64,000 bases of DNA. Source: Fodinicola acaciae. GTDB lineage: Bacteria > Actinomycetota > Actinomycetes > Mycobacteriales > HKI-0501. The notes below the pieces were generated by a model. The model was given only the letters and a program-made list of their open reading frames with translations. It had not been told where the DNA came from and did no database searches. This document shows positions 12,165 through 64,000 of the stretch, piece after piece. The stretch covers positions 2,421,235 through 2,485,234 of the forward strand of contig NZ_WOTN01000001.1 in assembly GCF_010993745.1 (NCBI RefSeq), read 5' to 3'. Numbering within the stretch: the first letter of the stretch is position 1; each line of letters starts with the position of its first letter. Both the position numbers and the translations under genes were made by a program.

Positions 12165-12923
12165 TCAGACCGCTTCTGAGGTCAGCATCCGGTGCTGCAG
12201 TTGGCGCATGCTGTGGTCGGGTTCCACGCCGAGCTCGTCGATCAGCGTCCGGCGCAGCTTCTGGTAGACCTCCAGCGCCTCCTGCCGCCGGCCGGCACGG
12301 GACAGCGCGGTCATCAGCTTCAGGTGGAACCACTCGTTGAGGCGGTGTGTCGCGGCCAGCTGCTTGAGGTCGCCGATCAGCTCGCGGTGCCGGCCCATCC
12401 GCAGCTCGCTCTCGATCCGCAGCTCGGTGACGTGCATCCGGGCCTCCTCCAGCCGTACGCGGTGGGTCTCCAGCCGCGGACCGGTCGCCACGTCCGCGAG
12501 GGCCGGCCCCCGCCACAGCGCCAACGCGGCGCGCAGCGTGTCCGACGCGTTCTGCAGCTCGCCGCGGTCCAGCGCCGACCGTCCCTGCGCGGCCAGTTTC
12601 TCGAACCGGGCGACGTCGACGTCCTCGGCCGGTGCGACCAGTCGGTAGCCGCCGTGCCGGGTCAGCAGCACGTGCTCGGCGGCCCATCCTCCGTCGCCGC
12701 AGCCGAGCGTCTTGCGCAGGTGATAGATGTACGTCTGCAGGGTCGTCTGCGCGCTCAGCGGCGGCCGGTCCGACCATAACTCGTCGATCAGCGCGCCGGT
12801 CGAGACGACCTCGTTGGCCGATGCCAGCAGCAGCGCCAGCACGGTCCGCTGCTTCGGCGCGCTGGGTCTGACGACGTTGCCGCCGATGCCGATCTCCAGG
12901 CTCCCCAGGACCTTGAATTCCAT
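12165..12923 (-). CDS. SARP-family (OmpR-type HTH + BTAD) activator
   Basis: A 252-residue Streptomyces antibiotic regulatory protein-type activator. The winged-helix domain is at about 10-95 (PSAPKQRTVLALLLASANEV then STGALIDELWSDRPP), followed by a bacterial transcriptional activation domain (BTAD) at about 100-245 with tetratricopeptide-like helices. Its length is that of small SARPs such as ActII-ORF4 or RedD, which switch on antibiotic clusters by binding direct repeats near -35. Its convergent neighbour is a polyketide cyclase. Upstream sequence has a 10-bp perfect inverted repeat at 12954-12981. Confidence 0.9.
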   Translation of the reverse strand: MEFKVLGSLEIGIGGNVVRPSAPKQRTVLALLLASANEVVSTGALIDELWSDRPPLSAQTTLQTYIYHLRKTLGCGDGGWAAEHVLLTRHGGYRLVAPAEDVDVARFEKLAAQGRSALDRGELQNASDTLRAALALWRGPALADVATGPRLETHRVRLEEARMHVTELRIESELRMGRHRELIGDLKQLAATHRLNEWFHLKLMTALSRAGRRQEALEVYQKLRRTLIDELGVEPDHSMRQLQHRMLTSEAV

Positions 12924-13298
12924 CCGAAAACAACCTCTCCGTTGACCACCGTGATGTTTCCTTTATGTTTCAAGGAAACATCTGGATAACATTTCGCTTC
13001 CGGCACGCACAGGCGAGGATCGCCGGCGCATTTCCACCCGCCGCAGTCATCGTGCAATTGACAGATCTGGTTGTCGTCTGGCGCCGATCTGTTTTTCCTC
13101 AGGTTCAACCGAGGTGGCCATGAGATCGTTTGCATCGCGATGGTTCAGCGAGCCTCAAAACCGGTCTGTACCAGCAAAACCGGCGCCCCGACCGCAATGT
13201 TTACGCATTACGTCAAATAAATGCCGCGGCCGCCAACGAAAATCTCGGACGCCGAGAGAAATCTCCTTTTGACATATGGCATATGTCACCGCGTACGG
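12924..13298. other. 375-bp leader region upstream of the SARP gene
   Basis: AT-richer than its surroundings and without convincing genes. It holds the SARP promoter and a 10-bp perfect inverted repeat, ATGTTTCCTT at 12954-12963 and AAGGAAACAT at 12972-12981 with an 8-base loop, ending 31 bp before the SARP start. A Cys-containing frame from 13135 leftward runs into the SARP gene, has no ribosome site and is not accepted. Near 13275, CATATGGCATATG is a second small palindrome. Confidence 0.5.
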
Positions 13299-15092
13299 TC
13301 AGTCCGGCAGGCCAAGCAGACAGAGCCGCACCAGGTCGTCCAACCAGAACCGCGGCTCGGCGTCCGGAGAATCGACCCGGCTCACCACGTGCGTCTCCAG
13401 CAGTTCGTCGAGCGCCGGCAGGTCCGGGTCGCCGGCCAGCTCGGCCAGGGTCACCGGACCGCCGCCGCGGCGGGCCAGCCGCATGACGAGTGCACGTTCG
13501 GCGCGGCCGAGCCGGCACAGGCCGCGTACGAGCGACGCGCGTACGTCCAGATCCCCCGCGGTCAGCTCGGCCAGCCGGCGGTCCTCGTCGGCCAGCCGGT
13601 CGGCCAACGCGGCGATCGGCCAGTACGGCCGTGCCGCGAGCCGCGCGGCCGCGATCTTCACCGCGAGCGGCAGATGCGAGCAGGCCGCGACCACCGCCTT
13701 TGCCGCCACCGGATCGGCGGCGACCCGCTCACGCCCGGCGACCTGGCCCAGGATCTCCACCGCCTGCCTGGTGGTCAGCGGCCCGACCGGCAGATGCCGC
13801 GCGTCCAGCAGGCCGGTCAGCCGGCGGCGGCTGGTGACCAACACGGCGCAGCCGAAGCCGGGCAGCAGCGGACGCACCTGGGCCTCGTCGGCCGCGTCGT
13901 CCAACACCAGCAACGACGACTGGCCAGCCAGCGCCGACCGGTAGGCGGCGGTCCGCTCGGCCGGGTCGTCCGGGACCTGCGTGACGCGCAGTCCGCGCAG
14001 CACGGCGGCCTGCACGTCGTACGGCTGGATCGCGTTGCCAGCACTGAGATCCACGTAGAGCTGGCCACCGGCGAATGCAGGTCGCAACGCGTGCGCCGCG
14101 CGTACGGCCAGCGTCGTCTTGCCGACACCGGCCGGTCCGCTGATCACGACGACGGCGGTGCCCGGCGGTCCTTCCTTGGCGAGCTCGGCGCAGATCTCGG
14201 TGAGCTGCTGGCGGCGGCCGGCGACATGCGGCACGTCCGGCGGCAGCTGGTTGGGCGCGCACGACCGTCGCGCCGGCGTCTGGGAGACCGCCAGCACCTC
14301 CGGCTCCGGCGGACGGTCCAGCGCCGGATCGCCGGCCAGGATCGCCTGATGCAGGCCCTGCAAGGCATTCCCGGGCTCGAGACCGAGCTCCTCGGCGAGG
14401 GTCGTACGGGCGCGGCGAAACACCTCGAGCGCGTCGCTGCGCCGCTGCGACCGATAGAGCGCGAGCATCCACTGCTCGTAGAACCGCTCGCGCAGCGGGT
14501 TGGCCGCGGTCAGCGAGGCCAGCTCGCCGAGCAGCTCGGTGTGCCGGCCGAGCTCCAGCTGCGTGTCGATCAGGTGCTCGTGGACGACCGAGCGGGTCTC
14601 CTCCCAGCGCGCGATGTCCTCGGCGAAACCGGCCGAGTTCAGGCCCTGCAGCGGCTGGCCGCGCCACAGCTCCAGCGCCGAGCGCAGCCGGTCGGCGGCC
14701 TGCTCCGGCTGGCCCTCGTCGAGCAACCGGCGGCCTTCGGTGGCGCGGTGCGCGAAAAGCTCGACGTCGTATTCATCCTCGGCCACCTGCAGCGCGTATC
14801 CGCCGGCCCTGGTGCCCAGCCGGTCGCCGCCGGTCGGTCCGGTCAGGCGGCCAAGCCGGCGGCGCAGCAGCCGGACCCGGTCGCGGACCTGTCCAGTCGC
14901 CGTACGCGGCGGCCCGTCCGGCCACACCGCGGCGACGATCCGCTCCACGCTGACCGCGCGGTTCGGCGCGGTCAGCAGCACGGCCAGCAGTAGCCGCTGC
15001 CGCGATCCGCCGAGCGGGATCGGTCCGCGGTCGTCCACGGCCTCCACCGGTCCGAGGACCCGGAAACACGCCGCCGCGCAGGCCACCTTCAC
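13299..15092 (-). CDS. AfsR-like regulator: SARP/BTAD plus NB-ARC ATPase
   Basis: A 597-residue regulator. The OmpR-type HTH is at about 10-100, BTAD at about 105-250, and an NB-ARC/STAND ATPase from about 285, with Walker A GPAGVGKTTLA (about 316-326), Walker B-like SSLLVLDDAADEAQ and the sensor VLVTSRRRLTGL. AfsR proteins of about 990 residues add C-terminal TPRs; this one ends soon after the winged-helix part of the NB-ARC module, so it lacks the TPR sensor. It is divergent from the membrane-tethered SARP across 294 bp. Probable pathway or global activator of secondary metabolism. Confidence 0.88.
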   Translation of the reverse strand: MKVACAAACFRVLGPVEAVDDRGPIPLGGSRQRLLLAVLLTAPNRAVSVERIVAAVWPDGPPRTATGQVRDRVRLLRRRLGRLTGPTGGDRLGTRAGGYALQVAEDEYDVELFAHRATEGRRLLDEGQPEQAADRLRSALELWRGQPLQGLNSAGFAEDIARWEETRSVVHEHLIDTQLELGRHTELLGELASLTAANPLRERFYEQWMLALYRSQRRSDALEVFRRARTTLAEELGLEPGNALQGLHQAILAGDPALDRPPEPEVLAVSQTPARRSCAPNQLPPDVPHVAGRRQQLTEICAELAKEGPPGTAVVVISGPAGVGKTTLAVRAAHALRPAFAGGQLYVDLSAGNAIQPYDVQAAVLRGLRVTQVPDDPAERTAAYRSALAGQSSLLVLDDAADEAQVRPLLPGFGCAVLVTSRRRLTGLLDARHLPVGPLTTRQAVEILGQVAGRERVAADPVAAKAVVAACSHLPLAVKIAAARLAARPYWPIAALADRLADEDRRLAELTAGDLDVRASLVRGLCRLGRAERALVMRLARRGGGPVTLAELAGDPDLPALDELLETHVVSRVDSPDAEPRFWLDDLVRLCLLGLPD

Positions 15093-15133
15093 TCCTGTCC
15101 GTCCACCATCGGAGTTGGTAGGACGACCATGCC

Positions 15134-15147
15134 TTGAACCGGTTCAA
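15134..15147. promoter_or_regulatory. Palindrome in the divergent SARP promoter region
   Basis: TTGAACCGGTTCAA is a perfect 14-bp palindrome 42 bp upstream of the AfsR-like start. A further TTGAACC occurs at 15188-15194 and a GGTTCG at 15151-15156. Repeated heptamers upstream of SARP genes are typical SARP binding arrangements; assignment to a particular regulator is inference. Confidence 0.45.
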
Positions 15148-15386
15148 TTCGGGTTCGACCTGCGGCGGCGAGCAGATCGAACAATTCTTGAACCTCTTGT
15201 AACTTCCATTCGACGGCACGGACCGGACGGCGCCGACAATTATCGTCAAAGCTATTTGTACCGGACAAACTTTCGGTCGATCCAGGGTCAATCGGTGTCG
15301 AATTCCCGGATCAGGCCGTTCCCGCCTATGTAGCATCGAATACTGCGTTTACGTTCGGCTGATGCCGCCAAGGAATCCGCACGGGG

Positions 15387-17414
15387 GTGCAGATGATCGG
15401 CACTGAACCGATGTCATTTCGCGTACTGGGACCGCTGGAGATCCGCGCGCCGGGTGACCGGCTGGTGGAGGTGACCGCCGACAAGCAGCGCCGGCTGCTC
15501 ACCACATTGTTGTTGCACGCCAACGAATGGGTCACCGTCGAGCAGCTGATCGCCGCCGTCTGGCCGGACCGGCCGCCGGCGTCGGCGCGCGGCAACATCA
15601 AGACGTACGTGCACGGGTTACGCCGGCTGCTCGCACCGGACGACCGCGGTGGCGGCCGGATCGACAGCAGCGCCGGCCGCTACCGGCTCAACGTCACCGG
15701 CGCTGAGCTGGACACTGAGCTTTTCGTCGAACTGATGGAAAAGTCGCGGGCCGCGGTGGAGCGCGGCGACACCGCGGTGGCGACCGACCAGCTGCGCAGG
15801 GCTCTGGACCTGTGGCACGGCCAGCCGTACGCGCCACTGGCCGGCCAGGACGCGGTGCTGGCCGCGCGCCGGCTGGAGGAGCTGCGCTGGGTCGCGCGCG
15901 ACCGGCTGGCCGACAGCCTGCTCGCCGGGGAGCGGGCCGCCGAGGCGGTGGTCCTGTTGCGGCCGCTGACCAGCGAGGACCCGCTGCGCGAGCCGACCTG
16001 GGAACGGCTGGTCGTCGCGTTGCACCTGGCCGGCCGGCGCTCCGAGGCGCTGGCGGCCTACGGCGAGGCGCGCCGCGCGCTGGTCAGCGAGCTCGGTGTC
16101 GAACCGGGTCCGCAGCTGCGGCAGCTGCACCAGCGGATCCTCGCCGGCGGCGCGGCCGAGCCGCCCGCGCAGCCGCGGACCCTGGTCCGCGACCCGAAGC
16201 CGAAAGCCCGACGGTCCTGGTGGCAGCGGGCGTCCGGCCGGATGCACCACCGGCTACGGACCGCGATCCTGCTGGTGGCCGCGGTCTGCGTGCTGACCAG
16301 TCTGGCGGTGCTGGCCGCCAACCACACGTTCGCCGATCCGCCGCTGCTGGCCGCCGAGCCGGTCAGCTCGCCGAGTCCACTGATCCTGATGGACAGCCGG
16401 CCGGCCGACCAACCGGCGCGCCGGCCGCTGCCCGGCTGGTCCTATCCGGGCCTGCACGCCGGGCCCGGCACCGAGAAGGCCAGCACCGGCCGCACCGGAC
16501 AGGTGCTGTTCGGCGTCGGCCCCAGCCTGGCCGCGGCCGCCGCCAGTCCGCTGACCCGGCAGGCGCGCGTGTCGATGCTGAGTGCCTCGTATCAGCGGCC
16601 GGCCGACCTGGCCGCCTTCACCGGCACGCACCGCGCCGACGTGGACCGCGCCTATCGCAGCGGCCGTGCGATCAACGTGGTCGTACGCGACAGCAGCGAA
16701 CGGCGGCCGCTTCGCACCGCGTACGGCCCGGCCTGCGGTGCCGTCGACCCTTTGTCGCCGAGCTATCCCGAACACATCCGCCGGCTGGCTCACGCGCTCG
16801 CCGGCAGGGCGACGGATCCGCCCCTGCTGATCACGCTCTTCGGCCGGCTCGAACACCTGACCTGCAACGCCGACGCCGTCGGTGGCCGGTTTCGCCAGGA
16901 CGCGGCGACCACGGCGTACTTCCGGGCGCTGAAGGACCGGTTCTGGACGCTGCGCAAGATCATCCTCACCGAGGCGCCAAACGCCCGCGTCGCGATCGGC
17001 TGGGAACACTGGCAGGCAAGCTTCGACCAGCCGTCGACCGGCGGCGGCCTGTCGATGTTTCCGTACTTCGCCGACGTGCTGCGCGGCTCGGACTTCATGA
17101 GCTTCGAGGCGATCGACGACCTGAGCAACGTGGTGTTCGTCAAGCAGATGGTCGACCAGCTCGGCCAGTACGGTCCCGTGGTGGTGACCAACTACGGCCC
17201 GCACCGGGGCTTGGTGCCTGGCGTCTTCGAGCGTGACGTGGAGAGCCTGTTCGACGCGCCCGGGATGCTCGACCAGCTCAGCAACGCCGGCCTCTACGGG
17301 TTCAGCTTCACCGACGACCAACAGATGCGGACCCATCCGGAGGCGCTGGTGCTGATCCGCCAGGTCGTCGACAACCGCGGCCTGGCACTCGCGCCGGGAC
17401 CCACGACCGCTTAG
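15387..17414 (+). CDS. Membrane-tethered SARP: OmpR-type HTH + BTAD + TM + exported GH-like domain
   Basis: A 675-residue protein with unusual architecture. Residues about 8-105 are a SARP winged helix (MSFRVLGPLEIR then TADKQRRLLTTLLLHANEWV), about 110-255 a BTAD, about 292-312 one membrane helix (AILLVAAVCVLTSLAVLAAN), and about 345-675 an exported domain. That domain has TIM-barrel-like strand patterns (LLITLFGRLEHLTCNAD, ARVAIGWEHWQASF) reminiscent of GH26-like proteins; I cannot assign a family. Predicted topology puts the DNA-binding part in the cytosol, like CadC or ToxR. GTG 15387 or ATG 15393 may start it; GGGGGTG precedes the latter. The substrate or signal is unknown. Confidence 0.85.
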   Translation: MQMIGTEPMSFRVLGPLEIRAPGDRLVEVTADKQRRLLTTLLLHANEWVTVEQLIAAVWPDRPPASARGNIKTYVHGLRRLLAPDDRGGGRIDSSAGRYRLNVTGAELDTELFVELMEKSRAAVERGDTAVATDQLRRALDLWHGQPYAPLAGQDAVLAARRLEELRWVARDRLADSLLAGERAAEAVVLLRPLTSEDPLREPTWERLVVALHLAGRRSEALAAYGEARRALVSELGVEPGPQLRQLHQRILAGGAAEPPAQPRTLVRDPKPKARRSWWQRASGRMHHRLRTAILLVAAVCVLTSLAVLAANHTFADPPLLAAEPVSSPSPLILMDSRPADQPARRPLPGWSYPGLHAGPGTEKASTGRTGQVLFGVGPSLAAAAASPLTRQARVSMLSASYQRPADLAAFTGTHRADVDRAYRSGRAINVVVRDSSERRPLRTAYGPACGAVDPLSPSYPEHIRRLAHALAGRATDPPLLITLFGRLEHLTCNADAVGGRFRQDAATTAYFRALKDRFWTLRKIILTEAPNARVAIGWEHWQASFDQPSTGGGLSMFPYFADVLRGSDFMSFEAIDDLSNVVFVKQMVDQLGQYGPVVVTNYGPHRGLVPGVFERDVESLFDAPGMLDQLSNAGLYGFSFTDDQQMRTHPEALVLIRQVVDNRGLALAPGPTTA

Positions 17415-20055: not shown

Positions 20056-20991
20056 GTACGGTCGCAGGCCGGCTTCGCCCGGGAACGGCATCGGCGAGAT
20101 GCCGATCTCGTCCATTCGGTCGAGATAGACCTGGTAACGCCGTCGCGCCTCGCCGTGCTGGCCGGCGCCGCGCAACACCGCGACCAGGCCGAGGTGCGCC
20201 TGCTCGTCGTAGCCGTCGCGTTCCAGGATGCGCAGGTTGTACTGCGCGGCGTTGTCGTATGACCGAGCGATGGCGGCCGTGGACGCGAGCGTGCGGAGCA
20301 ACTCGACGTAAGTCGCCTTCGCCTCCTCGCGCAGGCTCACGGCCCAGTCGTTGTGCTGGTCCTGCTCCAGGAAGTCGCCGGTGTAGAGCGCGGCCGCGCG
20401 GCGGAACGCGCGCGTACGCACCATCTCGGTCGGATGCTGACCCATCAGCGCGTGCCGCGCGGCGGCGAGGAACTCCTCGACGTCGACGCGGATGTTGGTG
20501 AGCGCGACGGAGTGCTTGCCGGTGCTGACGAAGTGGCTGGCCGGATGCAACCGGGCCGGGTCGAGCACCGAGCGGATGGTGGACAGCGCCACCGAGAGCC
20601 GGTTGGCGCACCTGGCCGGGCTCTCCCCCGGCCACAGCGCGTCGATCAGCGCCTCGCGCGGGATCGACCGGCCTCGCCGCGCGACCAACAGTTTCAGCAG
20701 GTCACGCGCCTTCTTCGAGTGCCACTCCACGGCCGGTGCGGCGCGGCCACTGGGCAGGACGCGAAACCGGCCGAGCGTCTGGACCGCCGGCAGCTGCGCC
20801 CCGGGCGGTGGTACGGCGGCGAGCGGCGCACCCCCCTCAGACGCGCCGTTCACCGCCTCACCGAGCCACCACATCGGCAGCCGGCCGGGGGTCGACCGCG
20901 GCGCGCCGGAGGTGCACACGCGCGCGGCCGGCGCCGGTGCCGGCGGCGTGAAAAAGCTGATGTCTGCGGCCCCCGCCGCGTACGCTGTCAT
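20053..20991 (-). CDS. BTAD-family regulator with extended N-terminus
   Basis: A 312-residue regulator. An Ala/Pro-rich N-terminal extension (about 1-70) precedes an OmpR-like winged helix (about 75-165, HSKKARDLLKLLVARRGRSI then REALIDALWPGE) and a BTAD (about 170-305). ATG 20991 has GGGGAG five bases upstream; an in-frame ATG at 21042 overlaps the sigma-factor stop (ATGA) and would add 17 residues. Coupling to an ECF sigma gene suggests a joint circuit. The stop codon is supplied by repeat E1. Confidence 0.8.
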   Translation of the reverse strand: MTAYAAGAADISFFTPPAPAPAARVCTSGAPRSTPGRLPMWWLGEAVNGASEGGAPLAAVPPPGAQLPAVQTLGRFRVLPSGRAAPAVEWHSKKARDLLKLLVARRGRSIPREALIDALWPGESPARCANRLSVALSTIRSVLDPARLHPASHFVSTGKHSVALTNIRVDVEEFLAAARHALMGQHPTEMVRTRAFRRAAALYTGDFLEQDQHNDWAVSLREEAKATYVELLRTLASTAAIARSYDNAAQYNLRILERDGYDEQAHLGLVAVLRGAGQHGEARRRYQVYLDRMDEIGISPMPFPGEAGLRPY

Positions 20992-21038
20992 CGTTTCTCC
21001 CCGTAGTTGCGATGAAACTGGCTCCAAACCGGCCCGGC

Positions 21039-21653
21039 TCATGACGCCACCAGCTGGCGGCGGAGCGCGGCCAGCGACCGGGCTCTGGTCGGTCCGATGC
21101 TGCCGACCGGCATGTTCAGCGCCGCCGACGCCGCCGTGTAGCTCGGCGTACGCGACGCCATCAACAACGTCAGCAGCTGGCGGTCGCGGTGCGGCAGCCG
21201 GTGCAGCGCGGCACGCACCTGCGCGTTCTGGTCGAGCGCGGCGACCTCGTCCTCCGGCGTACGGTCGTCGTCCGGCGCGTCCAGCTGGTCGTAGGTGTCG
21301 ACCAGCCGCTCGCGGCTGCGGCCCCGTACGACCGTGACGCTCTCGCGCCGCGCGATCGTCGCCAGCCAGCCACCGATCGCCGCCGGCTCGCGCAGCATGT
21401 GCAGCCGCTCCAGCGCGCGCAGCCAGGTCGTCTGCACGACGTCGGCGCTGGTCGCCTCGTCGAGACCGTGCGAGCCGGCGATCCGGTGCAGCCGCGGTCC
21501 GAACCGCCGAACCAGCTCCTCCCAGCTCGCGGTGTTGCCAGCGGCCGCCTCGGCGGCCAGCTGGGCGTTGCTCGGCTCCAGCGGCTGACCCTGCTCGGCA
21601 CTTCTGGGCGTCGGGACGTTGGTCCGCAGGTCGATCGTCACTGCCGGCGGCAT
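21039..21653 (-). CDS. ECF RNA polymerase sigma factor
   Basis: A 204-residue ECF-type sigma. Region 2 is at about 35-105 (WEELVRRFGPRLHRIAGSHG, ATSADVVQTTWLRALERL, GGWLATIARRESV), region 4 at about 145-200 (ALHRLPHRDRQLLTLLMASR then YTAASAALNMPVGSIGPTRA). No anti-sigma gene is adjacent; a BTAD regulator follows in overlap. It is divergent from a LAL regulator across 286 bp. Confidence 0.88.
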   Translation of the reverse strand: MPPAVTIDLRTNVPTPRSAEQGQPLEPSNAQLAAEAAAGNTASWEELVRRFGPRLHRIAGSHGLDEATSADVVQTTWLRALERLHMLREPAAIGGWLATIARRESVTVVRGRSRERLVDTYDQLDAPDDDRTPEDEVAALDQNAQVRAALHRLPHRDRQLLTLLMASRTPSYTAASAALNMPVGSIGPTRARSLAALRRQLVAS

Positions 21654-21939
21654 GGCAGGCCCACCTTTCCGCTGCTGTTTCCGCAGGTCGCCAGTGCTCC
21701 TGCGAAGGCGTTAACGGGAAATGTGCCAGCCCCGGGCAGCGGTCGAATCCGGGAAAACCCCAGGGTCCCGGCCAGGGGTACGCGCCAGGGGTCACGAATC
21801 TAAGCAAATGCTATGAAACAGCCGCGCGTACTCACGTTTCGGAGCGGTTTTGGGCTCCTCTGCAACGTTGCGTCACGGGCCGGTCGGACTTACCGGTGCG
21901 CGCCTTCTGCTCACCAGCGCAGCCCTCTAGGCTTCTCCT

Positions 21940-24714
21940 GTGCTGGTGGGCCGGACCGCGGAATGTGCGAACCTTCGCGCGCTCCTGGCAGCTGCTCGGC
22001 AGGGGGACGCCGGCGTCCTGCTGGTACGCGGCGAGATCGGCATCGGCAAGACCCAGCTGGTCGACTTCGTGGCCGAGGAGGCCGCCAACGACGGCTTCAC
22101 GGTCCTGCGCGCGTCCGGACACGAGGCCGAGAGCGAGCTGTCCTTCGCCGGCCTGTCCTGGCTGCTCGACCCGCTCGCCCGGCTGGCGCCGGAGCTGCCA
22201 GGTCCGCAGGCCGACGCGATCGCCGGCGCGCTGCACTGGGGACCGGTGACCGGCGGCGACCGGCTCGCGGTCGCCGCGGCGACGCTCACCCTGCTCGCCG
22301 CCGCCGCGGAGGAACAACCGCTGCTGGTCGTCGTCGACGATGTGCACTGGCTCGACCTGCCCTCGATGGAGGCGCTGATCTTCGCCGCGCGGCGGCTGAA
22401 GGCCGAGCGGATCGCCGTGGTGCTCGCTGCGCGTACGCCCGACGACGTCGCCTCCGGTCTCAACCGGTGGATCGGCACCTTGCCGGAGGTCATGGTGCCG
22501 CCGCTGGACGAGTCGTCGGCCTGGGAACTGCTCGACGGACAGAGCACCGGCCTCAGCCGCCGGCTGCTGGCGCAGCGGATCCAGGAGTCGGCCGGCAATC
22601 CACTGGCTCTGCTGGAGTTCCCGCGGATCAGCGCCGAGGTCTCGCCGGTGCAGCCGCTGCCGATCAGCCGCCGGCTCGAGCTCGCCTACGGCAGCCAGAT
22701 CGCCGCGCAGCCGCAGTCGACGCAGCGCGCGTTGCTCGTACTGGCCGCCGTCGGGTCGCAGCCAGGTGTCGCCGAGGAGGTCCTGCTGCCGGCGCTCGAC
22801 GCCGAAGGCCTGTCGGCGGCCGACCTGGAGCCGGCCGAGACCAGCGGCCTGGCATACATCGACGACCAGGGGATCCGGTTTCGCCATCCGCTCGTACGCT
22901 CCGCGCTCTACCAGGCCGCCTCGCCGGCCGACCGCCGTGCCGCGCACCGGGCGCTGGCCGAGGCGTTCCGGCGCATCGGCGGTCCGCGGGCCGCCGAGCG
23001 GCGCGGCTGGCACCTGGCCGCCGCCACCATCGGCACCGACGAGGCGGCCGCGGCGGACATGGCGGCCGGCGCCGACGCGGCGCTGGAGCGCAACAGTTTC
23101 GCGACCGCGCTGGAGCTCTATCGCCGCGCGGCGCGGCTGACGCCGCCTGGCGAGCTGCGGGTACGGCGGCTGATGCAAGCCGGCTACGTGAGCATGCCGG
23201 CCGGCCAGATCGAGCTCGGCCAGGAGCTGGTCGACGGCATCCTGGCCGAGACCGACGACGCCAAGCTGCGCACCGAGGCGCGGTTTCTGTGGGGCCGGCT
23301 GGGCATGTGGGGTGGCCAGCCGCGCGAGGCCAGGGACGTGACGCTGGCGACCGCACGCCAGGTGGAGACCGACGAGCCGGTGTGGGCCGCGTTCATGTAC
23401 GCGCAGGTCGGCATGGCGACGGTGATGATGGGTGAGCAGCGGCTCGCCTTCGAGGCGGCGAGCAAGGCGGCGGCGCTGGTCGAGGGACTGCCGCCGGAGG
23501 CGACGCCGCTGGTGCACGTGATCCACGCGCTGACGCTGGCGATCGGCGGCGACGGCGAGCGGGCCCGGCAGATCCTCACCGACAGCGAGCGGTTCCTGCT
23601 GGCCGGCGACCCGACCAGCGCCGAGCATCCGCTGCTGATCGGCGCGCAGGCGTGGGAGTCGCTGGAGGGGTTGCCCGAAGCACGCCGGCTGCTGGAGTTT
23701 CAGATCCGCTCGTCGCGGGCCGCGAGCGCGGTCGGGATCCTGCCGTTTCCGCTGTCCCGGCTGGCGATGCTGGAGTTTCGCACCGGCAACTGGCAGGCCG
23801 CCTACTCGTACGCGCACGAGGCGCTGGAGCTGTCCGAGCAGACCGGCTTTCTCACCGAGCTGCCCAACAGCCTGGTCACACTGGCCACCATGGAGGCCGC
23901 GATGGGCCGCGCCGACGACTGCCGCGAGCACGCCGACCGCGCGCTGCGGCACACGCAGGGCCTGGAGGTGTGGGCCGTACGCGCGACCGGCGCGCTCGGC
24001 ATGCTCGACCTCGCCGAAGGCCGGCCGGCCGAGGCAGCCGGCCGGCTCGCCGAGGTCGCCCGGTTCAGCGCCGAGCAGGGGCTCGGCGACCCGGTGTTGC
24101 TCACCTGGGCTGGTGACCTGGTCGAGGCGTACGTCCGCGCCGGCCAGCCGGAGCGCGCGGAGCAGCCGTACGAGGTGCTGGTCACCGAGGCGGCCAACAG
24201 CCGCCGCCCGACCGAGATCGCCATCGCGATGCGCTGCCGCGGACTGCTCGCCGACTCCGCCGACGACATGGAGAAGGCCTTCGCCGAGGCCATCGAATGG
24301 CACGGCCGGTCCAGCCAGCCGTTCGAGACGGCGCGGACGATGCTCTGCTATGGCGAGGCCCTGCGCCGGCACCGGCGGCGAGCCGCGGCGCGCGAGGCGT
24401 TGGAGGCCGCCGCCGAGCAGTTCGAGCGGCTCGGCGCCAAACCGTGGAGCGACCGGGCGCTGACCGAGCTGCGCGCGACCGGCGCGACCGCGCGGCCCCG
24501 CCGCGAGTCGCCGTCCGGGCAGCTCACCCCTCAGGAGCTGCAGGTGGCGCTGGTGGTGGCCGAAGGAGCGAGCAACGCCGAGGCCGCGGCGCAGCTGTTC
24601 CTGTCGCCGAAGACCATCGAGTATCACCTGTCCAACGTCTATCGAAAGCTCGGCCTGCGGTCCCGCGGTCAGCTCGCCAAGGCGATCGGCGACCAGGCCT
24701 TCGCCGGCGCCTGA
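21940..24714 (+). CDS. LAL-type (large ATP-binding LuxR) transcriptional regulator
   Basis: A 924-residue LAL regulator. It has an N-terminal STAND ATPase with Walker A GEIGIGKTQL (about 31-40) and Walker B LLVVVDDVHWLD (about 127-138), a middle array of TPR-like helices (about 380-840), and a C-terminal LuxR HTH (about 861-918, LTPQELQVALVVAEGASNAE, then SPKTIEYHLSNVYRKLGLRS). LALs activate antibiotic clusters (PikD-like) or sugar regulons (MalT-like). It starts at GTG 21940. Its place beside several SARPs fits secondary metabolism. Confidence 0.92.
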   Translation: MLVGRTAECANLRALLAAARQGDAGVLLVRGEIGIGKTQLVDFVAEEAANDGFTVLRASGHEAESELSFAGLSWLLDPLARLAPELPGPQADAIAGALHWGPVTGGDRLAVAAATLTLLAAAAEEQPLLVVVDDVHWLDLPSMEALIFAARRLKAERIAVVLAARTPDDVASGLNRWIGTLPEVMVPPLDESSAWELLDGQSTGLSRRLLAQRIQESAGNPLALLEFPRISAEVSPVQPLPISRRLELAYGSQIAAQPQSTQRALLVLAAVGSQPGVAEEVLLPALDAEGLSAADLEPAETSGLAYIDDQGIRFRHPLVRSALYQAASPADRRAAHRALAEAFRRIGGPRAAERRGWHLAAATIGTDEAAAADMAAGADAALERNSFATALELYRRAARLTPPGELRVRRLMQAGYVSMPAGQIELGQELVDGILAETDDAKLRTEARFLWGRLGMWGGQPREARDVTLATARQVETDEPVWAAFMYAQVGMATVMMGEQRLAFEAASKAAALVEGLPPEATPLVHVIHALTLAIGGDGERARQILTDSERFLLAGDPTSAEHPLLIGAQAWESLEGLPEARRLLEFQIRSSRAASAVGILPFPLSRLAMLEFRTGNWQAAYSYAHEALELSEQTGFLTELPNSLVTLATMEAAMGRADDCREHADRALRHTQGLEVWAVRATGALGMLDLAEGRPAEAAGRLAEVARFSAEQGLGDPVLLTWAGDLVEAYVRAGQPERAEQPYEVLVTEAANSRRPTEIAIAMRCRGLLADSADDMEKAFAEAIEWHGRSSQPFETARTMLCYGEALRRHRRRAAAREALEAAAEQFERLGAKPWSDRALTELRATGATARPRRESPSGQLTPQELQVALVVAEGASNAEAAAQLFLSPKTIEYHLSNVYRKLGLRSRGQLAKAIGDQAFAGA

Positions 24715-32484: not shown

Positions 32485-33771
32485 TCAGCTACCCAGCAGC
32501 TGGTTGCACTTGGCCACCGCGTTGTCCAGCGCCTGCTTCGCGGTTTGCTTGCCGGTCATGGCCAAGGCGACCTGCTGGCTGAAGTAGGTGTCCATCGCAC
32601 TCGTCCACATCGGCGGAGTGACGTTGACCGCGGTCTTCAGCGACTCGTACGCGAGCACACCGGCGTCGCCGGCCGGCGTGCCGTCGCTCTTGCTGTATGC
32701 CGGGTCCGAGCCGGCCGCCGCCGTGCCCGGCAGGAATCCCGGTGCCAGCTTGATAAACGCCTCCTGGTTGGCGTTGTTCGTCACGTACAGCGCGAAAGCA
32801 AGTGCCAGTGGCGCGTTTTTGCTCTTCGCCGACACCGAAATGCCCTGGACGTACAGCGGCGGCGTGCCGATCGCCTTGCTGGGGACGATCTGCTTGGCCA
32901 GGTTGGGGTTGGTCTGCGCGGTGCTCTGGATGTAGTTACCCGTGCCGGTCGTCCAGCCGACCACCTGCTTCACGAACAGCGCCGAGTTTCCCTCGTAGGT
33001 CTTGGTCAGCACGTCACGCGGCAGATAACCGGCCTTGTACGCGGCGGCGTACTTGTCGACGACGGCGATCGCGGCCGGCGTGTCGAAGACGAACTTCTTG
33101 CCGTCGTCGCTGACGATTTTGGTGCCGGAGTTGACGATGTCGATCAATCCCGGCGCGCGGCTCATCAGGTAGTCCTTGCCGCCGGACCGGTCGTGCATGG
33201 TTTTGGCCTGCGCGATCAGCTCGTCGAGAGTGGTCGGCAGCCTGGCCGGATCGAGACCGTCTTTCTGCAGCAACGCCTTGTTCCAGTAGTTCACGTCGGT
33301 GCCGAGATACCACGGGAAAGCGTACGTGCCGGTGGCCGCCGGATACTTGTACGCGCTCAGGCCGCTCTGCACGTAGTCCTTCGCCAGCGTCGGCACGTTT
33401 TTGGACAGGTCGAGCAATCCGCCGGCCTGCTGCACCGCGTACGCGATGTCCGGCGGCAGGTTGACCACGTCCGGCAGGCTGCCGCTGGTGACCTGGCTGG
33501 AGACCTTGTCCGGATAGCCGTCGCCCGGCTGGTCAATCCAGTTGATCTTCGTGCCGGGGTGCTGGCGCTGGAAATCGGCGACCAGCTTGCTGAAATACGG
33601 CGTGAACTTGTCATTTTTCAGCGACCAGGTCTGAAAAGTGATCTCGCCCTTGAGCGGTCCGCCGGTGGCGACCGCCTGATCCCCGCCGGAGCCGCCGCCG
33701 ATGCCGCACGCGGCGAGGCCGCCGGACAGGAGGATGGCTGCCACCGCGGCGAGCCAGGGTTTGCCGCGCAT
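32485..33771 (-). CDS. Sugar ABC transporter substrate-binding lipoprotein
   Basis: A 428-residue family 1 solute-binding protein. It has a signal peptide with lipobox LAAC (Cys about 21), then the two-lobed binding protein (GEITFQTWSLKNDKFTPYFS, PDVVNLPPDIAYAVQQAGGL). ATG 33771 has GAGAGGAAG upstream. First gene of the importer operon; a LacI-type operator lies 37-52 bp before its start. Ligand probably a beta-linked oligosaccharide, judging from the GH5-like gene in the same regulon. Confidence 0.92.
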   Translation of the reverse strand: MRGKPWLAAVAAILLSGGLAACGIGGGSGGDQAVATGGPLKGEITFQTWSLKNDKFTPYFSKLVADFQRQHPGTKINWIDQPGDGYPDKVSSQVTSGSLPDVVNLPPDIAYAVQQAGGLLDLSKNVPTLAKDYVQSGLSAYKYPAATGTYAFPWYLGTDVNYWNKALLQKDGLDPARLPTTLDELIAQAKTMHDRSGGKDYLMSRAPGLIDIVNSGTKIVSDDGKKFVFDTPAAIAVVDKYAAAYKAGYLPRDVLTKTYEGNSALFVKQVVGWTTGTGNYIQSTAQTNPNLAKQIVPSKAIGTPPLYVQGISVSAKSKNAPLALAFALYVTNNANQEAFIKLAPGFLPGTAAAGSDPAYSKSDGTPAGDAGVLAYESLKTAVNVTPPMWTSAMDTYFSQQVALAMTGKQTAKQALDNAVAKCNQLLGS

Positions 33772-33807
33772 GATTCTTCCTCTCTCGGGACGACGTCCGG
33801 AGGCGGA

Positions 33808-33823
33808 GCTAAACTGATCTAGT
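33808..33823. promoter_or_regulatory. LacI-type operator upstream of the sugar importer
   Basis: GCTAAACTGATCTAGT aligns without gaps to ACTAAATCGCTTTAGT at 34973, sharing 11 of 16 bases including the CTAAA and TAGT half-sites. It lies between the importer operon and the divergent LacI gene. Confidence 0.6.
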
Positions 33824-33931
33824 TGCCGCACTATGGCGCCGCGCACACAGGCCTGTCAAGGCCGTCCGGGCGGTCACGGCGCGTACGATGACCGGGCTCG
33901 GATCTTCACTCGACTCAGCAAAGGGACCCAG

Positions 33932-34948
33932 ATGGCACGGCCGACGATCGGCGACATCGCGCGCCGGTCCGGCGTGTCCAAAGGTGCGGTGTCCTTCGCG
34001 CTCAACGGCCGGCCAGGGGTCAGCGAGGCGACCCGCAGCAGGATCCTGGCGATCGCCGAGCAGATGGGATGGCGGCCGCACAGTGCCGCACGCGCGCTGC
34101 GCGGGTCCAAGGCCAACATGGTCGGCCTGGTGTCCGCGCGGCCGGCCCGTACGCTCGGCGTCGAGCCGTTCTTCGCCCAGATGGTGTCCGGCCTGCAGGC
34201 CGGCCTGTCCACCCGGGGAGTCGGCCTGCAGCTGCTGGTGGTCGAGGACATCGAGGCCGAGGCGGCGGTCTATCGGCGCTGGCGCTCGGAAAACCGTGTC
34301 GACGGCGTGGTGGTGTTCGACCTGCGCGCCCGCGACCCGCGGATCGAGGAGCTGGAGCGCTCGACACTGCCGGCGCTGGTCTTCGGCGGCCCCGGAAAGC
34401 ACGGCTCGCTGCCAAACGTGTGGATCGACGACCGCGAGGCGATGCTGCAGATCGTCGAGTACGTGGCGGCGCTCGGCCACACGCGGATCGCGCACATCGC
34501 CGGCCTGCCGGAGCTGTGGCACACGCAGCGCCGGATCCGCGCGCTCAAAAGCGCGGCGAGCCGGCTCGAGCTGGCCGACGCCCGGTCCTGGCCGACCGAC
34601 TTCAGCGACGCCGAAGGAGCCGCCGCGACCCGCCGGCTGCTGTCCAACCGGCCACGGCCGACCGCGATCGTCTACGACAGCGACATCATGGCGGTCGCCG
34701 GACTCGGCGTCGCGCTGGAGATGGGCCTGCGCGTGCCAGAGGACCTTTCCGTGGTGTCGTTCGACGACTCGCTGCTCGCGCGGCTCATGCATCCGGCGCT
34801 GACCGCGCTGACGCGCGACACTTTCGCGGTCGGCGAGCTGCTCGCGACGACGTTGCTGACCGTCATCGAGGGGGAGGCGATCGCCAGCCTCAAGCTGGCC
34901 ACGCCGCAGCTGGTCGTACGCGAGAGCACGGCGCCGCCGGCCGGTTGA
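33932..34948 (+). CDS. LacI-family transcriptional regulator
   Basis: A 338-residue LacI/GalR repressor. HTH at residues about 5-25 (TIGDIARRSGVSKGAVSFAL), hinge helix near 50-60 (HSAARALRGSKANMVG), and a periplasmic-binding-like sugar domain. ATG 33932 follows AAAGGGA. It lies between the sugar importer and the GH5-like gene, both with matching operators, so it very likely controls uptake and hydrolysis of one oligosaccharide. Confidence 0.93.
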   Translation: MARPTIGDIARRSGVSKGAVSFALNGRPGVSEATRSRILAIAEQMGWRPHSAARALRGSKANMVGLVSARPARTLGVEPFFAQMVSGLQAGLSTRGVGLQLLVVEDIEAEAAVYRRWRSENRVDGVVVFDLRARDPRIEELERSTLPALVFGGPGKHGSLPNVWIDDREAMLQIVEYVAALGHTRIAHIAGLPELWHTQRRIRALKSAASRLELADARSWPTDFSDAEGAAATRRLLSNRPRPTAIVYDSDIMAVAGLGVALEMGLRVPEDLSVVSFDDSLLARLMHPALTALTRDTFAVGELLATTLLTVIEGEAIASLKLATPQLVVRESTAPPAG

Positions 34949-61023: not shown

Positions 61024-64000
61024 CTACGCGGCGTACGCCTCGATCTCGTCCAGGAACATCGCGGTCGCGTTGCCGCCGTAGGTCTTGTTGAAGGTCAGCC
61101 GCACCCACCGCGCCTGTGTCGGCGCCATGCCGAAGTCATACCAGACGCGGCTGGCGTCGTTGGTCTGGCCGAGCGTGCCGACCGTTGTGAAGTTGACCTT
61201 GTCGGTGCTGGTCGCGACCGTCACCGAGCTGGGCCGATAGTCGGGATATTCCTCGTACGCGTGGAAACGCACCTTGTTGATCGACTGGACGGTGGCGAGG
61301 TCGACGAGCACGGTGACCGAGGTCGCGGACGTGTAACCGTATGACCGGTTGTCGCCCCAGTCGTCGGCCAGCACGCCGTCGGTCGACTCGGTGACCGCCG
61401 GATCCAGGTATTTCGGGTCGCCGGCCGGTTTCGGTGTTGCCTCGTACGTGCGACCTCCGGCGACATTGGCGTGCGGCAAGGAGAATCCGGCGATCTCCAG
61501 GTCGTCGAGGCTGACCGGCTGGCCGTTGCTGGTGCTGTCGACGACGAGCCGTAGGTATTGCGCTTTCGCGTTCAGGCCGACGAAATCGTCACCTCCGTCA
61601 CCGGCCGGGTTGGCCGCCGCGGTGGCCCATTTCGTGCCGTCGTAGGAAACCTGCACGCTGTAGCTCTTGGCGAAGACACTCCCCCACGACAGCCGCAGGC
61701 CGTCGACCTGCGCCTGCTGCGGAAGATTGACGGTCAATGTCTGCGTGCCGGCGGCCGTCGGCTGCCAGCTCGTACCGTGGTCGCCGTCGATGGCGTCGCC
61801 GGCCTCGTGACCGGTTGCCTGGCTGGATGCCGACGCGGTCGCGGCGCGCGCCAGATCGTTGGCGACGACCGGCTTTCCGCTGGCCGCGTCCAGCACGAGC
61901 GCGCGGATCCGCGCCATGTAACCGGGATCGGCCGAATACTTGTCGGCGCTCTGCGTCAGTGCGTACGCCAAGTCGTGTGCGAGCCCCGGATTCGTCCTGC
62001 CGAGAATGGCAAGCACCTCATAGTCCTCGGCGCCGTCGCGCTGCGACTCATACCGGATCGTCGACATGATCCGGTGGTTTTGCTTGTCCGGCCAGACGAT
62101 GTAGTGGTCACCCTTGACAGAATCAGTGTCCAGACCGGCGAGCCAGCCGGACATCGAATAGTGCAGATAACCGTTGGCGTTGCTGCCGTACGCATACCAC
62201 ATCGTCAGCCGCTGGTGCCATTCTGGCTGGTCGAGGAACCGGTTGAGATAGTTGGCCACCGGGATGTTGCAGTTGTAGAGGAAAAGATCGCGGTCCGGCA
62301 CGCCGTCGTGGTTGTTGTCCTCGCTGCGCAGCTGGTCGTAGACGTTCGGATGGTTGGTGGGGCTGTAGTTGAGCAGGTTTGGCACCATCACGCTCATGTT
62401 GGGCGCCAGGTTGGAAGCCCACGGCTCGTGGAAAATCGCGTCGCCGAGCCGGACGTCCGGCCACACCGCGCGGATTTTCTGCGCCATGCCGTTCCACGCG
62501 TCCTGGTCGCTCTGGCTCTGCGGCTCGTCGCCGAGATGCGTCCAGAACATGCCGGTCCAGCCTTTCTGGTCCAGATGCGCCTTCAGCGCCGGATAGAACT
62601 TCTGGACCCAGTTGGCCACCGTCGAGGAGCTCCACGTGACGTAATCGCGTACGGAGGCACCGCTGGCGTTCCGTGAAATCATCTCCATGTCGCGGATTCC
62701 GTCATGGCCGTGGTAGTTGTCGGTGTCGGCCATGCCGGTCATGCCTTCCAGCCGCTTCACCGAGCTGTGGTCCAGATAGAACTGGATCACCTGGTCGAAC
62801 CTGTCCCACTTGAAGGTGTACGTGCCGTCCGCATTGGCTGTCGTGCCACCGTCGAGCAGCAGGCCGATCATCGGAAACGCGAAGTCGTTGGTGCGGTGTT
62901 CCCTCATCTGCTGCGCGACATCGGTCTGCAGCTGCCACCATTCCGGTGTGTAGCGGTCCATTCCGTACGTCAGGTTGATGGTGTCGCCGTCCGGTTTCCA
63001 CGACAGCTCACCGACAAACGTGTGCCACATGGAAACGGTGAAGGCGCCATCCTTTGGATCGGGGATCGTGACAGCGCGTACGTTCACCGAGATCGGGACG
63101 GTCGAGTCGCCTTTGTTGGTGTGGATGGTCGCCGTGCCGGTGTACGTGCCGGCCGCGGTCGTCTTCGGCACGTACGTCTTGACCCAGATCGCCTGCGTGC
63201 TGTTCGCGTCGACCGCCGCGGCGGGATCATTCGAGAGATCGTCCGGAAAGTCGGCCGGCGCCTTGCGCAGGACCGGATAGATCGGCTGCGGTCCAGTCGC
63301 GCCGTTGAAGGCCGAGTTGGCGTTCAGATGCCGGTAGCCGACGAAGTTGTAGGTCAGGTTGGTTGCCGCGATCGAGTTTCCGCCGCTGGTCAGCGCGCTG
63401 AAGTCGACGCCGGTGATGGCGAACGCGTCCGGCCGGCGCAGGACGATCTGTCCGGCCTCGTACTCGTTGCGCGCCGCGTCCAGCGCCACCGACTGCCCGG
63501 ACGACGGATCTGGTTGCGTGTCACGGAAAACGTTGGTCGACGCCGGCTCGGTCCAGACGGTCGTCGGGCTGCCGCCACCGGTGAAACTGACGATGTCGGC
63601 CTTGTGGTCGCCGTTGACATCGCCGATCCGCGGCGTCTCGCCATTACGCGCGAAGCCGCTGGTCCATTTCCAACCGTCCTGCACGAAACGGCCACCGTCG
63701 GACAAGGACACGTAAACGCTGCCGTCCGCGCCGCCGGTGAACGTGACGAGGTCCGCCTTGCCGTCACCGTTGACATCGCCGACCGCCGGCGTTTCGTTGC
63801 CTACGGCGAAATGATCGTGCCACTTGACGCCGTTTCCGTTGAACTTCGAGCCGTCGGACAGCGCGACGTAAACGTCCGCGGTCGTACCACGGGTGAAGGT
63901 GGCGATGTCGTCCTTGCCGTCACCATTGAAATCACCAACCGCGGGGATTTCGTCGTTGTACGCGAAATCGTCGTGCCATTTTATCGCGTTGCCGTTGAAT
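61024..64000 (-). CDS. Large secreted VCBS/GH123-like (DUF4091)/discoidin protein, 5' end cut
   Basis: At least 991 residues; the start lies beyond 64000. N-to-C order in view: three VCBS/FG-GAP repeats with Ca-binding [18 protein letters not shown] and DVNGDHKAD; a beta-sandwich part ([20 protein letters not shown]); a TIM-barrel with [17 protein letters not shown]; a DUF4091 module ([18 protein letters not shown]); then two F5/8 type C (discoidin/CBM32-like) domains, the last ending in [10 protein letters not shown]. Related proteins are GH123-like hydrolases acting on N-acetylhexosamine glycans. Probably extracellular. Specificity is not determined. Confidence 0.88.

Follow-up and report, generated by a model that had tools for sequence, protein, structure and literature searches.

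SARPs are the standard activators of antibiotic clusters, and it has long been asked how signals from outside the cell are conveyed to them. The logic model of a transmembrane one-component regulator is CadC. In ToxR and CadC, an OmpR-type winged helix at the N-terminus is followed by a single membrane helix and by a C-terminal sensor outside the cell. The sensor of CadC has a disulfide (PMC3096576). The anti-sigma factor RsgI6 of Clostridium thermocellum carries an outside domain of glycoside-hydrolase fold. As described in the accessible text of PMC4711584, this GH10 domain has very low activity, binds the polysaccharides xylan and cellulose, and controls hydrolase genes.

Here, we analysed a gene at positions 15387..17414 (+) of a 64,000-nucleotide stretch of Fodinicola acaciae DNA (the window). 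Its 675-aa product resembles the SARPs ActII-ORF4, RedD, AfsR, and PimR in combining Trans_reg_C with BTAD, but has a predicted membrane helix and outside domain instead of NB-ARC, TPR, or LAL parts. The likeness to ToxR and CadC, which is one of description, lies in the order of winged helix, single membrane helix, and outside sensor, whereas the extra BTAD, the predicted GH-A-like barrel in the place of the sensor, the actinobacterial host, and the putative SARP-type operators set the protein apart. It is also comparable to RsgI6 in its outside glycoside-hydrolase-fold domain. However, RsgI6 holds a sigma factor, whereas here a DNA-binding activator lies on the same chain, and the sensor of RsgI6 is GH10, whereas the fold predicted here is GH26/GH1-like.

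A literature search, which covered titles and the beginnings of abstracts among the matches listed, subscription papers being mostly missing, revealed no SARP that combines a membrane helix with an outside domain. The available text of a SARP review gives no membrane form and does not contain the word 'membrane' (PMC10972967); the same word is absent from the accessible text of the AfsR structure paper (PMC10936776), as are the terms SARP and BTAD from the available main text of a survey of transmembrane regulators (PMC10269533). We consider it probable that the protein is a one-component transmembrane regulator, namely a glycan sensor similar to CadC and RsgI with a SARP output.

Domain order and predicted topology

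The positions 15387-17414 form a single uninterrupted frame of 675 codons, in which the third-position GC content is 0.82-1.00 in 14 of 14 blocks of 50 codons. The candidates for the start codon are GTG at 15387 and an in-frame ATG at 15393 or 15411, and the architecture is the same for each. The Pfam scan placed the OmpR-type winged helix, Trans_reg_C, at aa 32-93 (15480..15665; E 2.1e-8, above the curated cut-off) and BTAD at aa 108-252 (15708..16142; E 5.3e-33), which means that both domains by which a SARP is defined were found and that the borders foreseen for the HTH and BTAD, about 1-255, were about right. Nothing credible was found by Pfam C-terminal of BTAD.

The membrane helix is predicted from hydropathy. 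The 19-residue Kyte-Doolittle mean reaches 2.74 at aa 293-311 (16263..16319), while the next best value elsewhere in the protein is 1.16; this agrees with the one clear helix originally placed at 292-312. The 20 residues before the helix contain seven K/R and no D/E, and the 20 residues after it contain no K/R and two D/E, i.e., the basic residues are on the SARP side. The helix is followed by a poorly conserved linker (aa 312-369, 16320..16493), which aligns to the paralogue with gaps and was modelled partly at low confidence in the first structure prediction, and then by the predicted exported domain, referred to as the exodomain (aa 370-675, 16494..17411).

The same signals were seen in the fused homologues described below. 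K/R residues are more numerous before than after the single hydrophobic helix in all eight complete fused copies, with a narrow bias (4 versus 3) in the locus L064. Two conserved Cys residues are present C-terminal of the helix in 8/8 complete copies, L064 having a third one; in the window protein, these likely disulfide partners are Cys450 (16734..16736, +) and Cys493 (16863..16865, +). Meanwhile, homologues consisting of the exodomain alone start with signal- or anchor-like stretches, two of them with a lipobox-like LAGC, as judged by eye from 12 N-termini of one family (f32); two of these 12 frames have long, spurious-looking upstream extensions. Because of the charge bias, the conserved Cys residues, and the exported-looking lone homologues, the C-terminal domain is predicted to be outside, most likely with a disulfide. 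A ToxR/CadC-type layout, i.e., a DNA-binding domain, one helix, and an outside sensor on one chain, is predicted here from the Pfam matches, hydropathy, charge bias, Cys residues, and N-termini of the lone homologues.

We also considered the possibility of an annotation artefact, either two genes joined by error or a hydrophobic stretch that is buried in the protein, with a C-terminal part that stays in the cytosol. The topology does rest on prediction, and one fused copy, that of the congener G001, is broken by two frameshifts. In spite of this, an artefact is highly improbable in view of the charge bias, the paired Cys residues, the single clade formed by the fused SARP halves, and the same arrangement at eight other loci. 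A frameshift or misassembly near 16200-16330 had been named in advance as the finding that would speak against the fusion; no break in the frame or in the GC pattern was seen there, and the joining of two genes by such an event was rejected because the arrangement recurs at the eight further loci.

Homologues and history of the fused copies

The search for other proteins of this type, which the original prediction had called for, yielded eight further loci. The nine fused loci belong to eight genomes and comprise the window copy, a paralogue on contig C2 of the same genome (8.86 Mb), the copy of the congener G001, and six copies of Micromonosporaceae (f15). The C2 paralogue, a protein of 623 aa with the same order of parts, is 40% identical to the window protein overall and about 35% identical in the exodomain. 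The G001 gene (L013 8710-10644, -) is split over frames by its two frameshifts in a draft genome that is 74% complete, and it may represent a pseudogene or a sequencing error. The SARP parts of the Micromonosporaceae loci L062, L063, and L064 are 91%, 85%, and 64% identical to that of L020, respectively.

The exodomain was searched for in genome sets of increasing breadth. Among 61 genomes (its own and 60 relatives), the two matches were from its own genome and G001. The 397 genomes of the order gave four matches, adding G342 and G362 (family f15) to these two, and the 300 Micromonosporaceae genomes gave eight, six of which were fused and two of which were exodomains alone. The 394 genomes of the class yielded 18 matches, i.e., its own and 17 from the single family f32. 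No SARP part was seen by eye at the N-termini of 12 f32 proteins, and tblastn with the SARP half gave no match in ten f32 loci. When a collection of contigs was searched with the full window protein, no relative was found; a three-row exodomain alignment retrieved only Winogradskya humida (NBRC 14915), which is one of the six Micromonosporaceae copies (G903). The exodomain apparently represents an unnamed family of exported domains that also occurs alone in other actinobacteria. In three f32 loci, a conserved gene of about 640-664 aa is divergent to the lone exodomain gene (L048 4497-6488, L049 9039-11033, and L051 8724-10643).

Two trees were examined for the history of the fusion. The SARP-domain tree contained 26 domains, namely eight fused ones (G362 was left out) and 18 others, all from the own genome of the window; the fused copies were on one side of a branch with a support of 99/98, found in 100% of 200 bootstrap trees. 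The exodomain tree contained 25 rows, nine fused and 16 lone, with the tail piece of G001 left out; L032, L035, L037, L039, and one unlocated match of G555 were left out of an exodomain alignment. Here, the nine fused copies were also on one side of a branch (support 100/99), and the window row formed the longest branch of the tree, which carries a long-branch warning for this row. One fusion followed by divergence would be the simplest history, with a tree that does not fix the side of the root.

The own genome gave 40 SARP matches, including the query itself. The loci of 20 of them were fetched, and the 16 SARPs with a complete frame were examined for helices. Two of these, L068:130-1698 (G000 C2:198229-199797) and L069:136-1569 (G000 C1:2108335-2109768), have several hydrophobic segments after BTAD, carry no recognised outside domain, and group with each other outside the fused clade when placed in the SARP tree. 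The initial statement that SARPs are normally soluble remains a fair one, but this genome has at least these two further SARPs with several hydrophobic segments.

Predicted fold of the exodomain and its presumed catalytic columns

A TIM-barrel-like pattern had been suspected in the exported part of the window protein, and the structure prediction and fold search agree with it. The model based on four alignment rows had a pLDDT of 72.0, whereas 21 rows gave a pLDDT of 87.1 and a pTM of 0.89. The best matches in Foldseek were the GH26 lichenase 2bv9 (E 2.0e-7, TM 0.63/0.67) and then 2v3g (E 1.6e-6). VIA-align gave, among the 50 matches listed, mostly GH1 and GH26 entries, with Z of 17.3-18.6 over 245-278 residues and an rmsd of 3.1-4.2. 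The TIM barrel of clan GH-A is a firm prediction from these models. GH26 is the nearest guess within the clan and follows the order of the Foldseek matches; the term 'GH26-like' is a soft one, because VIA ranks the GH1 and GH26 entries alike among the matches listed.

The exodomain resembles the GH26 lichenase CtLic26 in its predicted fold, but differs from it in sequence and in the presumed catalytic glutamates, which are missing in the fused copies. The identity in the structural matches was 11-12%. The 21 exodomain rows, which include the two pieces of G001, had no match to the GH26 family PF02156 at E <= 1, and membership in GH26 is not claimed. In the same 21 rows, Pfam found two chance families, in one member each (E 0.23 and 0.29), and the exodomain profile, when run against PDB sequences, produced matches at chance level (best E 0.19).

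In clan GH-A, the acid/base Glu follows strand 4 and the nucleophile Glu is at the end of strand 7. The corresponding columns were placed using the strand ends of the model and the general geometry of the clan. The strand-4 column assigned in this way shows F-T-E in all 16 lone proteins, R in the window copy, and G in the other eight fused copies; two residues past it, E or D is found in four and Q in five of the nine fused copies. The assigned strand-7 column is occupied by H in 16/16 lone proteins and, among the fused copies, by N in the window, Q in C2, R in G001, and, in Micromonosporaceae, H (four copies) or Y (two copies). An acidic residue is present there in no copy, fused or lone, and the nine fused copies have one in neither column. 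An active glycosidase is not favoured, since the acidic residues are absent from the presumed catalytic columns of the fused copies. Provided that the columns were assigned correctly, the barrels of the fused copies would not count as ordinary retaining glycosidases, and the absence of these residues indicates that the fused exodomain is probably a receptor.

The same columns bear on another reading, in which the barrel outside the cell serves as a tethered enzyme, or as a module for the surface or for oligomerisation, and regulation occurs by shedding or cutting of the tether, independently of glycan binding. Intramembrane cleavage is used by RsgI in Clostridium thermocellum, as stated in the accessible text of PMC12203970, and the Glu at the presumed strand-4 column of every lone homologue would suit an enzyme. 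Since it is exactly this Glu that all fused copies lack, and no copy is acidic at strand 7, we regard a tethered module as unlikely and retain the receptor as the preferred reading. Judged from its sequence, the window protein is a SARP by both defining domains and ToxR/CadC-like in its predicted working, with a putative receptor domain that matched no named family in this analysis. The original prediction of a SARP, a membrane helix, and an exported glycosidase-like domain in one protein was borne out by the homologues, the topology signals, and the confident TIM-barrel model.

Neighbouring genes, phased repeats, and the proposed circuit

A GH16-type gene adjoins the fused gene in eight of the nine loci. 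The window copy is the exception, and no such GH16 gene was found in the 64-kb window. The ExDxxE motif is intact in 8/8 of the adjoining GH16-type genes. Four of the eight were scanned by Pfam, with GH16 matches above the curated cut-off in L020 and L013 and just below it in L009 and L022; three of the four proteins also had a CBM4_9-like match under its own cut-off. The GH16 proteins appear to be exported, as judged by eye. The nearest solved relatives of the L020 protein are the laminarinase 3iln (E 2.4e-7) and the beta-1,3(4)-glucanase 7wwc (E 9e-7). In the six Micromonosporaceae loci, the GH16 and SARP genes are divergently oriented, and GH16 is faced by a convergent LuxR-type gene (PF00196 in L020), while in the C2 and G001 loci the GH16 gene converges with the SARP gene. 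Within the DNA examined, no such GH16 gene was found near the exodomain gene in the ten f32 and two f15 loci with a lone domain.

Alternatively, the regulator may sense a polysaccharide of its own envelope or developmental matrix (spore, sporangium, or capsule) rather than a nutrient glucan, and time matrix hydrolases and development. According to the available text of PMC12691653, spores of Micromonosporaceae, e.g., Actinoplanes, are released by secreted glycoside hydrolases under transcriptional control, and no PF02156 mannanase or lichenase was found in the own genome of the window, which would also suit this explanation. However, the nearest solved relatives of the GH16 enzyme act on outside beta-glucans, and the terms GH16 and SARP are absent from the accessible main text of the same paper. 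On balance, we find the sensing of the own matrix rather doubtful and continue with an outside glycan as the preferred signal, which is inferred from the fold and the neighbourhood only.

The intergenic region between the SARP and GH16 genes contains TSAMC repeats phased at 11, 11, and 12 bp in the direction of GH16 in 6/6 Micromonosporaceae loci, three repeats in L063 and L064 and four in L020, L021, L022, and L062. In five loci, the distance from the array to the GH16 match that follows it is 116-136 bp; in L064, the start of GH16 is not fixed. CACAGT or CACTGT follows the last repeat by 10 or 11 nt (8 or 9 nt past the heptamer) in L020, L021, L062, and L063, and was not found there in L022 and L064. 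A second phased array is located before the LuxR-type gene in 5/6 of these loci, L062 being without it at the strict motif. The motif (GKTSA) was defined after viewing L020-L022, which makes the loci L062-L064, added later, a partial test; the first array was present in three and the second in two of these three, L062 and L063 being close to L020 and orthologous arrays not being independent events. In dinucleotide shuffles of L020, L021, and L022 (100 each), arrays of three repeats occurred at a rate of 0.00-0.01 per locus, and arrays of four were absent; L009 and L013 were likewise shuffled 100 times each and the window 40 times. A third array of three phased repeats is present in L021 at 12380-12407 (+), between the LuxR-type gene and a GH65-type gene. 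The GH65-type gene is upstream of the LuxR-type gene in both L020 (12251-14554, -; Pfam) and L021 (12431-14647, -; similar sequence).

The strict motif gave no three-repeat array in L009, L013, or the window. By eye, a TCACC-NGACC-TGAAC triplet was seen before the C2 and G001 SARP genes, with spacings of 11/11 and 12/11. In the window, the divergent intergenic region 15093..15386 separates the fused gene from an AfsR-like gene (13299..15092, -; SARP and NB-ARC by Pfam and NCBIfam). Four pairs of the motif G[GT]TC[AG] are found there at 11-bp spacing, with first bases at 15142/15153 and 15275/15286 on the + strand and at 15193/15182 and 15139/15128 on the - strand; one further pair is spaced at 21 and one at 22 bp, and the remaining spacings from 6 to 30 gave no pair. 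Four 11-bp pairs were reached in 0/2000 shuffles and 0/217 tiles of 294 bp, for a motif that was picked after inspection. At the strict motif, the region has 0 pairs, and no convincing -10 element was seen by eye at the window pairs.

As stated in PMC10936776, the sites of SARPs consist of direct repeats spaced by 11 or 22 bp, 8 bp separate the 3' repeat from the -10 element, and the -10 element of afsS is CACTGT. The tandem direct repeats at 11-bp phase and the CACTGT/CACAGT element of four loci resemble this description, and the phased arrays match the published layout of SARP operators as putative binding sites. The arrays could instead belong to another regulator (AfsR-like, a soluble SARP, or a response regulator of the PhoP type), with the membrane SARP as a mere neighbour. 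AfsR and PhoP have overlapping direct-repeat sites according to the accessible text of PMC10972967, the window intergenic region is shared with the AfsR-like gene, and SARPs are numerous in the own genome. As the array stands directly before the membrane SARP gene in all six Micromonosporaceae loci, another binder is improbable as a general explanation. For the window copy, the AfsR-like gene is perhaps the target, and the AfsR-like protein would be an equally good binder of the pairs.

Other genes of the window were also recorded. Its parts 12165-15092 and 20056-24714 are rich in regulators (a small SARP, the AfsR-like SARP, another BTAD protein, and a LAL-type LuxR regulator), near which a P450 gene and a macrolide-type glycosyltransferase gene are located. 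Sugar-related genes lie 15-44 kb from the fused gene, with a solute-binding protein gene beside a LacI-type regulator at 32488-34945 and a GH123 gene with F5/8-type domains at 61027-63711.

The CadC/ToxR one-component logic of the original prediction is supported by the homologues, the topology signals, the TIM-barrel model, the GH16 neighbours, and the phased arrays. In the proposed mechanism, the SARP half would be cytoplasmic, and a single helix would connect it across the membrane with a probably disulfide-bonded clan GH-A-like barrel that acts outside as the receptor. The barrel would bind a poly- or oligosaccharide outside the cell, for which a beta-glucan is the most likely candidate, and the binding would change the dimer state of the SARP half or cause its (proteolytic) release. 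The SARP protomers would then align on the TSAMC repeats, which are arranged in tandem at 11-bp phase a short distance upstream of the -10 element, and would recruit RNA polymerase. In Micromonosporaceae, the regulator would likely act on the neighbouring GH16 gene and on the LuxR-type gene, and the C2 and G001 copies have a GH16 neighbour too. The window copy appears to be a diverged member without this neighbour, and its probable site of action is the divergent intergenic region next to its own gene.

More tentatively, the fused proteins may form a dedicated glycan-sensing branch of the SARPs, in which a retired glycosidase barrel was fused once via a membrane helix. Its older output would be a beta-glucanase regulon, and the window copy would have been redirected to a regulator-rich cluster, where an outside glycan would turn on the AfsR-like gene and, possibly, secondary metabolism as well. 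A SARP that brings its own exported sensor and is accompanied by a conserved neighbouring enzyme and a predicted operator would make up a complete testable circuit, as it supplies candidates for the class of ligand, the receptor, the DNA site, and the target gene. Such a circuit may offer a handle for waking silent clusters with glycans.
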